NCBI GenBank assembly: GCA_024274915.1
Contig: JAJSAC010000018.1
Location: 1-35,001, forward strand
Reading direction: 5' to 3'
DNA length: 35,001 bases
From: Thermodesulfobacteriota bacterium
Lineage (GTDB): Bacteria; Thermosulfidibacterota; Thermosulfidibacteria; Thermosulfidibacterales; B14-G1
Positions 24,042 to 27,840 of this stretch are shown here, in pieces; positions within the stretch are counted from its first letter, which is position 1, and each line of letters begins with the position of its first letter. Position numbers and translations under genes: made by a program. The notes under the pieces were generated by a model. That model had not been told where the DNA came from. It did not search any database and worked only from the letters and a program-made list of their open reading frames with translations.

Positions 24042-24327
24042 TCTGAGAAGTTCTCTCCTTATCGCAACTCCCCTGTTTTTTGATCATTGTTTTCTAAATA
24101 TCTTGAATAGAAAAAATCAATTTTATTTTTCCAGTGGTGGCCTGTATATATATGGCAGATGGCATTGTGAATTAAGGCGCATGTGGTGGTGGGCTGCAGG
24201 TGGTTATTAGAATATTCTAATGGCATCATTAATAGGAAAGGGGGGTGGTAGTGAAGGGATGGGAGATTTGTGTTGAATTGTCGTTGTGTTTGACGAGATT
24301 TCGATGGAAACCGGAGGGGAGGTGGAG
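24042..24327 (+). other. AT-rich intergenic region upstream of the cytochrome operon
   Basis: This 286-nt gap is clearly more A/T-rich than its surroundings and has no convincing gene. It holds poly-A/T stretches around 24105-24135, a TATATATA run near 24145, and the 16-bp palindrome at 24206-24221. A TTGATC/TTGAAT pair with 17-nt spacing near 24081-24109 is a weak promoter candidate. No clear terminator for the rodZ-like gene was seen. Confidence 0.5.
24206..24221. promoter_or_regulatory. Perfect 16-bp palindrome, candidate operator of the cytochrome/porin operon
   Basis: ATTAGAATATTCTAAT is a perfect inverted repeat about 107 nt before the cytochrome start, in the otherwise gene-free AT-rich gap. 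Its size and symmetry suit a dimeric transcription factor site. It does not match the FNR/CRP, CIRCE or classical Fur consensus well. No regulator gene lies next to it. Confidence 0.45.
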
Positions 24328-25449
24328 ATGAAAGAGTGTCGATGGAAGGGTTTTTCTTTTCTTTTGGTGGTCTCAGTCCTTGTGGTGTTTTCGGTGGGGG
24401 CCTGTACTTCCATGAAAGAGGCGAAGAAGGAGGCTGAGAATGCTAAAGTCCCCGTTGTTGAGGGGGCGAAGTATGTGGGCTCTGGGGCGTGTGCCGATTG
24501 CCACGAGGGCATTGTGGAGGACTTTAAAAGGACCATTCACGGTAGGATCGCCGGTTTTGAAGTCAAGCCCAACATGGTGGCCGAAGGCTGCGAGGCCTGT
24601 CACGGTCCCGCCAGCAAACATATCGAAGAGGAGGACCCGGCTTATATTCTCAATCCTGCCAAGCTGGAGCCTGCTCAAGCTTCGGCTATCTGTTCTCGTT
24701 GCCACACTGATGGCGAGATCATGGACTGGCGGGGTTCTGAGCATGCCTTGAACGATGTCTCCTGTGTAAAGTGCCACACCATCCACGGCAAAAAGGACAA
24801 AATGGCCTACAGGGAGAAGCTGGGTTATCGCCACAAACACGTGAAGGATACTCTCCTGAAGAGGCCCGAGCCCGAGCTGTGCTTCACCTGTCATAAGGAG
24901 ATCATGGCCAAGACCAACTACCCCAATCACCATCCCGTGAAAGAGGGCAAGATGACCTGCTCCGAGTGCCACAATCCCCACGGTTCCATAGTGGAGCCCT
25001 TGCTCAAGACCGATGAGACCTTGAACGAGCTTTGTTACAAGTGTCATGCGGACAAGGAGGGGCCCTTTGCCTTCGAGCATGCCCCTGTGGTGGAGAACTG
25101 CACCATCTGCCACGATCCCCACGGCAGCGTGGCCGACAATCTTCTGAAGCAGAACGAGCCCTATATATGTATCCAGTGTCACGGCCTTCACTTTCATTCG
25201 GCCATTCGGCCGGACACCAATTATATCGTTAATAACCAAGAGCCTGGGCACAGTTGTCCTCCTGGATTTGCATGGAATCCAGATCCTAATACAGGAGGTC
25301 CGGGATGTGCCCCTGCCGTTGTGATGCCTAACTCCCATGCCATGCAGATGGTCATGACTACCAGGTGTACCGAGTGTCACTCTGCCATTCACGGATCTGA
25401 TCTGCCATCCCTGGCCACTCCGGGTGGCGGTAGCAGACTAACGAGATAA
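24328..25449 (+). CDS. Decaheme c-type cytochrome lipoprotein, DmsE/MtrA family
   Basis: 373 residues with exactly ten CXXCH heme sites, at Cys55, 88, 122, 146, 185, 211, 236, 258, 281 and 347. The spacing and the closing CTECHSAIHGSDLPS block match DmsE/MtrA-type decahemes, which carry electrons across the outer membrane inside an MtrB-type porin. The N-terminus is a lipoprotein signal (VVFSVGAC, lipid Cys26, next residue Thr). Family members are normally soluble periplasmic proteins, so a lipid anchor is a difference. Between hemes 9 and 10 is an insert of about 60 residues with two extra cysteines (Cys310, Cys327). ATG 24328 follows GGAGGTGGAG. The porin gene starts 11 nt downstream. Confidence 0.93.
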   Translation: MKECRWKGFSFLLVVSVLVVFSVGACTSMKEAKKEAENAKVPVVEGAKYVGSGACADCHEGIVEDFKRTIHGRIAGFEVKPNMVAEGCEACHGPASKHIEEEDPAYILNPAKLEPAQASAICSRCHTDGEIMDWRGSEHALNDVSCVKCHTIHGKKDKMAYREKLGYRHKHVKDTLLKRPEPELCFTCHKEIMAKTNYPNHHPVKEGKMTCSECHNPHGSIVEPLLKTDETLNELCYKCHADKEGPFAFEHAPVVENCTICHDPHGSVADNLLKQNEPYICIQCHGLHFHSAIRPDTNYIVNNQEPGHSCPPGFAWNPDPNTGGPGCAPAVVMPNSHAMQMVMTTRCTECHSAIHGSDLPSLATPGGGSRLTR

Positions 25450-25460
25450 GGGGGGAGAAG

Positions 25461-27779
25461 ATGGTAAGGAGATGGATACTGGTGGTGCTCTTGGCTCTTT
25501 CCCTCCCCCTTCTGGGAATGGGAAGGGTTTTTGCAGGGGAAGGTGGCTCTGCTAAGATCAAGGTGGATGTGACTCCTGGGTACCACTTCGTCGGCCACGA
25601 CGACGAGATGACCAAGGTAGGAGAATATGAGTCCTTATCCTCAGGTGCCCAAGGAGAGGTGAAGATCAACGCCGATATCGGTCTGTTCAAGGCCGACGTA
25701 CATGCCTTCTACTATGACGAAGATGAGAAGGAGTGGTCGGCTAATCTCGACTTCGGCAGGGTGTTCAGGGTCGATTACTCTTATGATAGTTTCCTCCACA
25801 GACTTCAGCACGATTATCTCTATAGGGACGAGCCCAGGTTTCCCAAGAATATTCCCCCCAATGGGGTAAACAACGGTTTGGTGGCCTTCAACCCCTTCTG
25901 GAGAACGGATGCTCCTGGTGAAACTTTTGATGGTGAACCTCGCCTTGGCGGTGCTCAGATGGTGGCGGCCGACGATTTGGATGTGGGCAGGGACTACCAG
26001 ATCTTCAGGAGCCACCAGCAGGCTCATGTGAAGGTGCAGATGCCCTTTTTCCCCTACATCGTGCCTGAGTTCAGGGTTTCCGAGGAGAACAAGAGAGGAT
26101 GGAGACAGGCTACGTTTATGTCCGGTAAGTGCACTCCCTGTCACATTGTTGGTGTGGGACGCAGGGTGAACGAACATACCCGGGATGTGACGGCAGGTTT
26201 CACTGCCAAGTACGGCATTGTTACTGCCAGCTACTTCCACACCTGGCGCCACTTTGACAATGAGGCTGAGACGCCTCGGTGGACATTTGACAATGTTTAT
26301 GCACCCCCCGAAGAAATGACTTTCTTCCCTCAGAGGCTCATGTACGATGGCGAAAGGGGTGGATACGCCGAGGTTCCCGATGTGAGGAAAGACACGGACA
26401 AGGTGAAGGTGAGAGTGGATTTGCCCTATCACACCACTGTTTATGCTTCTTATGTCAATTCGGATGTGGAGAATAACTATACTAGCAAAGACTATGGGTT
26501 TGACGCCTATGCAGGTAGGGTCACGAGTACATTGCTGGGCAATGCCCTTACTGTAACTCTTAAAGGTCGCTATTACACCATAGACAATGACGATGTGTAT
26601 GTGGATATTGGCTCCATGTCCAATGATAGCACGGTTGCTGGACCTGGTTATGGTGTGCCTTCTTCTTATTTCGATTATACCCGGAAATCCAATATGAGCA
26701 GGGACGTGACGGAGCTGGGGATCAGTTTCCGCTACAGGCTGGCCAGGCATTACACTGTACGGGCGGGCTATGAGTACACCCGGATAAACCGTGAGAATGA
26801 GAAGTGGAAGGACTATGATTCTTATCTCTACGACGACAGGTTCCTGGATGACGAAGATACCACCATCCATAAGGTTAAAGTGAGCCTTCTGGGTAGGCCC
26901 TTCAGGACTCTCCAGTTCAGACTTACCTACAAGTACGAGCATCAGAAAGACGAATTTGAGAATCACAATGGTATCTGTCTTGAACACAGAGATCTGCCAA
27001 AACCTGGAGGCATTCCTTACTATGAAATATTCAGGAACCAGTACCGTGGAAAAGATGCCTCCAACGTGCCTCAGGACACTCACGACTTGACCTTGGTGAC
27101 TACCTGGACTCCTTCTGGTCGCTATTCTGCCACTTTAAACCTGAAGTACAAGTATCAGGACAACGATGACTCCGACTGGGAGGGCCAGGTCTATATGGCA
27201 GGCATCAACTTCTGGGCTTCTCCTTTGAATAATCTGGTTTTCAACCTGGGGGCAAGCTACGAATACGACACCTATGAAACCCGCTTCGACCTGAACCTGT
27301 TCGGTGGGTGAGGCGGCCACAGCTTCGTGAGCCAGGTTGGCTCACTTTGTGACAAGGTGGACTACGATGTTAAGAACTTCGTGGCATATCTGAGCGCGGA
27401 CTTCACTCCTATCAAGAATCTCAGGGTTTACGGCGACCTCACCTACACTTGGTCCAAGGCCGATGCCGATAACCCTCACTTTGGGAATCCTTTTGGTGTG
27501 ATAGACATTGATGGTCATGAGGGACCAAGTTACAAGCCCGGTTATGATCCCTGGTTCATTATCACCTATACTGGTGACATGGACGACATGTCCGACTGGT
27601 ACGATTTGAAGATGGAGCGGGTGGATGCCTCTTTGGGATTCGGCTGGAACTTCTGGAAGAATTTCACCGTCACCACCAGGTTCACTTACCGCTGGTATGA
27701 CGATGAAGAGGAGTACCTCTATGAGGATACCGATGGTGAGGCTTACATCATGAACGTGGGTCTCGTGTGGAAGTTCTGA
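25461..27779 (+). CDS. MtrB/PioB-family outer-membrane porin with one in-frame TGA (putative selenoprotein)
   Basis: 772 residues if the TGA at 27309-27311 (codon 617) is read through. The signal peptide ends near VFA-GEG (residue 25). The rest is alternating beta-strands with long acidic loops, ending NVGLVWKF; the final Phe is the outer-membrane beta-barrel signal. Barrels of this type sheath a decaheme cytochrome, here encoded just upstream. The frame is the same on both sides of the TGA, the barrel pattern continues, and no ribosome-binding site precedes the first start after it (GTG 27327). A SECIS-like hairpin follows. Codon 617 falls in a predicted extracellular loop with Cys630. A CXXCH motif (Cys224-His228) also occurs. 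Alternatives are a nonsense mutation or a sequencing error. Confidence 0.85.
27318..27351 (+). promoter_or_regulatory. Candidate bacterial SECIS element inside the porin gene
   Basis: GTGAGCC (27327-27333) and GGCTCAC (27339-27345) form a perfect 7-bp stem closed by loop AGGTT (27334-27338). CACA (27318-27321) and TGTG (27348-27351) can add a lower stem across a small internal loop. The loop begins 22 nt after the in-frame TGA at 27309-27311. Bacterial SECIS elements are known to sit just downstream of the Sec UGA, with a G-containing apical loop; E. coli fdhF has loop AGGUCU 17 nt from its UGA. The bulged U of the E. coli stem is absent. The element is coding throughout. Confidence 0.6.
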
Positions 27780-27808: not shown

Positions 27809-27840
27809 GAGCCGGAGGCCAAGGCCTCCGGCTCCTTTTT
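27809..27840 (+). terminator. Strong intrinsic terminator of the cytochrome/porin operon
   Basis: A perfect 12-bp G/C-rich stem (27809-27820 with 27823-27834), loop AA, is followed by CTTTTT. It lies 29 nt after the porin stop, which supports the view that the TGA-split frame is a single gene at the end of this unit. The sequence TTTTGACAAG occurs directly before and directly after the hairpin (27800-27809 and 27837-27846). Confidence 0.93.

Follow-up and report, generated by a model that had tools for sequence, protein, structure and literature searches.

A conserved hairpin downstream of an in-frame TGA in an MtrB/PioB-like barrel gene is very probably a selenocysteine insertion signal

Introduction

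The closest described systems to the locus studied here are MtrB of Shewanella (6r2q chain B) and the GSU2204 family. To our knowledge, MtrB contains no selenocysteine (Sec). MtrB and the protein encoded here have in common a barrel fold over the whole length and a decaheme partner gene, but the two are 14% identical in structural alignment and our protein has a predicted Sec. GSU2203 has been named OmcK, and PMC4070692 describes GSU2203 and GSU2204 as raised on hematite and magnetite. An MtrB/PioB family outer membrane beta-barrel protein is listed in selenoprotein tables (PMC9312934 and PMC13188914); the accessible portion of PMC2398784, which both reviews cite for the barrel family, contains no "outer membrane" or "MtrB" wording. 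Since the barrel family already stands in these tables, the kind of protein is known, and the gene in our window (the whole 35,001-nucleotide stretch of DNA that we analysed) is a new member of this listed family in an uncultured lineage. In the literature searched we found no functional study of the family's Sec residue.

The Sec insertion signal (SECIS) of E. coli fdhF lies just downstream of the UGA, has a G-bearing apical loop and carries a bulged U in the 5' arm of its upper stem. A published model of bacterial SECIS elements asks for an apical loop of 3-9 nt on an upper stem of 4-16 bp, a G within the first two loop positions, a distance of 16-37 nt from the UGA to the apical loop and a minimum free energy at or below -7.5 kcal/mol (PMC13188914). 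Here we examine a hairpin that follows an in-frame TGA in the barrel gene of the window, together with the homologues of that gene.

Results

A barrel gene that continues past an in-frame TGA

The open reading frame at 25461-27311 of the forward strand ends at the TGA at 27309-27311, and the frame is open onward to a second TGA at 27777-27779. Read through, the gene (25461-27779, forward strand) encodes 772 amino acids with the first TGA as residue 617. The read-through protein scores 503.9 bits against NCBIfam NF041027 ("GSU2204 family CXXCH-containing (seleno)protein", cut-off 350), and the match stops at residue 616, model position 580 of 580, just ahead of the predicted Sec. The gene thus resembles the GSU2204 family in its score, in a Sec position at the end of the model, in a CXXCH within the barrel and in a GSU2203-type decaheme partner. 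The protein is 20-37% identical to 22 aligned homologues outside its order. It also matches PF11854 (MtrB_PioB; 30.8 bits, with 23 needed), a broader family than TIGR03509 (MtrB/PioB decaheme-associated outer membrane protein), for which the part before the TGA scores 14.8 bits and does not reach 240.05. These matches and the MtrB fold match described below identify an MtrB/PioB-like outer-membrane beta-barrel of the GSU2204 family and a predicted selenoprotein.

Upstream, at 24286-25449 of the forward strand, lies a gene for a decaheme c-type cytochrome of the GSU2203 (OmcK) family (NF041028, 463.6 bits, cut-off 325), which has 10 CXXCH motifs and is the predicted electron-wire partner of the barrel. 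An upstream frame with at least four CXXCH motifs is found in 46 of the 47 homologues with TGA at the Sec position (TGA genes) that have enough sequence. On the other side of the barrel gene, a terminator-like hairpin (11 pairs, then a T-rich tail) is present at 27809-27834 (forward strand); the region holds three terminator-like sites against 3.6 expected by shuffling.

The barrel itself has a single CXXCH (CTPCH, residues 224-228, forward strand 26130-26144), the likely attachment site of one haem c. C224, C227 and H228 are invariant in 30 of 30 aligned homologues. Residue 617 is invariant in the same alignment because the rows were chosen as TGA genes, whereas the invariance of CXXCH does not arise by construction. 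All 48 TGA genes with sufficient upstream sequence have the motif, as do 8 of 11 relatives without TGA, so that Sec is not required for the haem motif. On this evidence the Sec seems to be part of a haem-bearing barrel that is able to do without it. Our expectation that loss of Sec would be paired with loss of CXXCH was rejected on the same eight relatives.

A short hairpin 22 nt past the TGA

The hairpin occupies 27327-27345 of the forward strand, with GTGAGCC as the 5' arm of the upper stem (27327-27333), AGGUU (AGGTT in DNA) as the apical loop (27334-27338) and GGCTCAC as the 3' arm (27339-27345). The loop fits the pattern N1-G-[G/U]-N-N2. When 27309-27360 is folded as RNA, the same hairpin is obtained with one additional pair, A27334-U27338, giving 8 bp and a GGU loop. 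The fold energy is -13.1 kcal/mol for the 33 nt around the hairpin and -19.4 kcal/mol for the 52 nt of 27309-27360, a figure that includes a second small hairpin. The stability of 27309-27360 is by itself unremarkable (z -1.28, with 23 of 200 shuffles as stable), and an Rfam scan of 27000-27700 returned no relevant family.

A sequence-only reading of the window had already described this perfect 7-bp stem with its AGGTT loop beginning 22 nt after the TGA, and both the sequence and the coordinates agree with it. Its estimate that such a pairing has a chance of 1 in 16,384 is too small. Counting both strands, the window has 1,014 TGA triplets, and 9 of them (about 0.9%), including the one at 27309, precede a perfect stem of 7 bp or longer whose G-bearing loop lies 16-37 nt away. 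At roughly 1% per TGA, the hairpin alone is suggestive, and it is the homologues that decide. The same reading had offered a possible lower stem, CACA (27318-27321) with TGTG (27348-27351). This stem can be written, yet it lies outside the predicted fold and pairs in 42.3% of cells across 53 homologues against 42.2% in shuffled alignments; we therefore dropped it. A close likeness of the loop to that of E. coli fdhF had also been claimed. Our hairpin, like the fdhF element, lies just past the UGA and has a G-bearing apical loop, and the loop likeness goes no further than that G-bearing character; the window hairpin has no supported lower helix and, as the sequence-only reading had stated, no bulged U in the 5' arm, the stem being perfect.

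The published bacterial constraints all hold for the hairpin, in loop and stem size (GGU with 8 bp or AGGUU with 7 bp), in the early G of the AGGUU loop, in spacing (22 nt) and in energy (-13.1 kcal/mol over 33 nt). These constraints are permissive, as 117 of the 1,014 TGA triplets of the window pass our own version of them. Among the homologues, 46 of 55 TGA genes pass compared with none of the 11 genes without TGA; eight of the nine TGA genes that fail do so on energy.

Conservation of the TGA codon among homologues

Our family searches gave 57 matches over the cut-off (13, one new and a further 43), and 53 of these were examined at the Sec column; the other four (G733, G654:C233, G643:C28:28262 and G536) end before the Sec position. 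The codon is TGA in 50 of the 53, TGC in two and TTG in one. Five more TGA genes came from below-cut-off matches or fragments, bringing the set to 55 distinct TGA genes, with 11 non-TGA rows as controls; matches below the cut-off were fetched only in part. Loci L022-L025 and L027-L032 were omitted as repeats. Within the order of the window, all eight matches that cover the Sec place (the window's own excluded) have TGA at 53-84% identity, and G007, one of eight related genomes, gave no family match. Two distant paralogues have the TGA as well. A plasmid search with the barrel protein returned no match. Two loci, L079 and L093, have a TAA or TAG within the family match besides the Sec TGA and are broken genes or assembly errors.

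Standard ORF calling closes the frame at 27309, as would be expected if this TGA were a genuine stop or resulted from a sequencing error, leaving the gene broken or split in two. We regard this as extremely improbable: the same codon recurs in the 50 homologues above, the sequences on both sides of it make one barrel fold, and the downstream part ends in the usual terminal aromatic residue.

Selection on the stem as RNA

We measured covariation for an eight-pair stem on a gap-free alignment of 53 TGA genes, with L026 and L057, whose hairpins have a different spacing, left outside. In the upper stem, 73.6% of cells are paired compared with 59.3% after shuffling, two-sided changes occur in 66 cells compared with 24.3, and the covariation score is 0.351 compared with 0.142; none of 500 shuffles was as high on any of the three measures, and the true stem beats every slid version on each of them. 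The column pair 23-33 illustrates the pattern: of 52 rows, 19 have G-C, 18 have C-G and 11 have A-U. The number of further pair types in the stem is not raised (13 against 13.7 shuffled). RNAalifold found no consensus pairs in the full 53-row alignment, probably because ten genes carry the stem in another register; it finds a hairpin in each subset.

As the stem is protein-coding, we randomised synonymous codons as a null. With the threshold set at no more than 20 of 400 random versions as good as the real sequence, 38 of 55 TGA genes beat the null, 17 do not, and none of the 11 non-TGA genes does, counts that, like those of the stem changes, represent non-independent events given the shared ancestry of the rows. 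Mean z is 2.6 for the TGA genes and -0.1 for the non-TGA genes. Loci L013, L018, L019 and L055, identical to other loci over the compared stretch, were dropped from the codon-null counts.

The stem could in principle be a by-product of protein constraint, with a conserved peptide around Q-V-G forcing palindrome-like DNA. Codons do partly fix the loop and the inner pairs, QVG or QFG being common beside Sec. However, synonymous randomisation loses the stem although the protein is kept, the stem pairs covary while the residues differ (VSQVGS, VRQVAS, VTQAGS, TPQVGA), and two Cys homologues are seen without an equally strong stem, leaving this explanation highly improbable. The stem is under selection as RNA. 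Compensatory changes among homologues, with the coding constraint allowed for, had been named in advance as the check on a SECIS, and their outcome favours one.

Six loci (L033, L035, L081, L088, L091 and L092) are predicted to form hairpins in which one base of the 3' arm is bulged, in contrast to the 5' bulged U of E. coli; these are possibly a variant of the signal.

Homologues that carry cysteine in place of selenocysteine

We built a midpoint-rooted tree from those rows that had enough upstream sequence, 58 of 66. In it L101 and L102, the two TGC homologues, nest in the Sec clade beside L016, from the genus of the window, and L107. Their enclosing branches have support of 100/97 and 100/99, with L101 filling only 32% of the alignment columns. 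The stem is absent from both, and the genomes of both also carry the Sec form (L077 and L089). The simplest reading of stem-less TGC homologues within the Sec clade is that Cys took over from Sec and the hairpin was lost. In L101 (G441:C87) there is also an in-frame TGA 90 codons upstream of the Cys; we rejected it as a second Sec, and it looks like a nonsense change or a sequence error.

Two further barrel groups stood out. Loci L018-L021, L099 and L100 make up a paralogous second group of Sec barrels. Its stem is GCCCC/GGGGC, and its stretch from CXXCH to Sec is about 486 residues long compared with about 376-446 in the others. L109-L112 are a related group in which CXXCH is kept and the aligned position has no Sec and no Cys.

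Selenocysteine machinery in the same genome

The genome encodes a tRNA-Sec (78.8 bits, anticodon tca), SelB (375.4 bits) adjoining SelA (484.9 bits, truncated where the contig ends) and SelD (376.4 bits). The selA and selB genes are grouped with a selenium-metabolism LysR regulator at L118 (G000:C46). The selD gene has an in-frame TGA of its own, within SGUGAK (L120, G000:C41:19995-20918), so that SelD is probably also a selenoprotein and a second gene of this genome probably uses UGA as Sec. A stable predicted hairpin lies downstream of the selD TGA. Judged by its gene content, the genome makes selenocysteine.

A genome-wide reassignment of TGA, for example to Trp or Gly, would account for the in-frame TGA itself, and we found nothing further in its favour. 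It is scarcely credible given that the barrel gene terminates on TGA, as do the genes of several relatives, that tRNA-Sec, SelA, SelB and SelD are all present, and that, of the three over-cut-off homologues lacking TGA, two encode Cys instead. Covariation, the codon-preserving null, the stem-less TGC homologues and the Sec machinery all support the SECIS reading first made from the sequence. We conclude that, very probably, the hairpin is a bacterial SECIS and the UGA at 27309-27311 is read as Sec.

Predicted fold and place of the selenocysteine

AlphaFold2, run with the 30-row alignment, predicts the read-through protein with a mean pLDDT of 77.4 and a pTM of 0.73, and 26 barrel strands can be counted. 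Among solved structures, MtrB (6r2q chain B) matches best, with Z 27.3 and rmsd 4.7 over 583 residues, and the runner-up has Z 17.6; an alignment-based sequence search of solved structures gave nothing at E 0.1 or better. The last five strands follow the Sec position and close the barrel. Of 30 read-through proteins, 28 have F or Y as their last residue; L072 ends in Q and L013 is cut by its contig.

The Sec loop (615-625) lies between strands 21 and 22, with pLDDT below 50 at 616-621, and the CXXCH loop lies between strands 7 and 8. If the N-terminus is periplasmic, the strand count would put both loops on the same outer face, which is most likely the cell surface. A candidate nearby thiol is Cys630, 13 residues past the Sec (codon at 27348-27350, forward strand). 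Across the family, 40 of 55 TGA genes have a Cys at -7 or at +11 to +15 of the Sec: it is at -7 in 33 and at +11 to +15 in 10, three genes having both and 15 neither. In the predicted structure, residues 610 and 630 (-7 and +13 of the Sec) would face each other across a symmetric strand hairpin.

Discussion

The analysis suggests how this gene may be expressed and what its product may do. From its site on the hairpin 22 nt downstream, SelB would deliver Sec-tRNA(Sec) to the UGA at 27309-27311, and translation would go on through the last five barrel strands to the C-terminal aromatic residue. The product would be a 26-strand MtrB/PioB-like barrel of the GSU2204 family sheathing the adjacent decaheme cytochrome, the two forming an electron conduit. 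The surface selenolate could then exchange electrons with the outermost haem and with an outside acceptor or donor. No surface cytochrome of the MtrC type adjoins the gene pair in the window.

On the predicted model, Sec may be a surface redox centre, its selenolate standing between the outermost haem and an outside substrate, a proposal that we advance tentatively and with slightly more doubt than confidence. A more specific version, in which the surface Sec would be the terminal redox centre together with the haem of the CXXCH loop and, in most members, a Cys on the same rung (at -7 or about +13), is rather doubtful. Alternatively, Sec could have a structural or metal-ligand role, for example as an axial ligand of the CXXCH-loop haem, and not be a surface redox site. 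Few residues are invariant in the 30-row alignment, whose rows were chosen as TGA genes; CXXCH and Sec617 are among them, and the two are predicted on the same face, as such a role would have it. Conversely, the persistence of CXXCH in eight relatives without TGA argues against an obligatory haem-ligand role, and the Sec and CXXCH loops are 14 of 26 strands apart; we consider this alternative unlikely.

The SECIS case presented here, tested with covariation and a codon-preserving control, is that of a short, bulge-free hairpin very probably kept as a Sec signal within coding sequence, and the Cys-bearing homologues without the hairpin provide a natural experiment. If the model of Sec as a surface redox centre is true, selenium chemistry would take place at the outer face of the conduit, and selenium supply would be tied to extracellular respiration.
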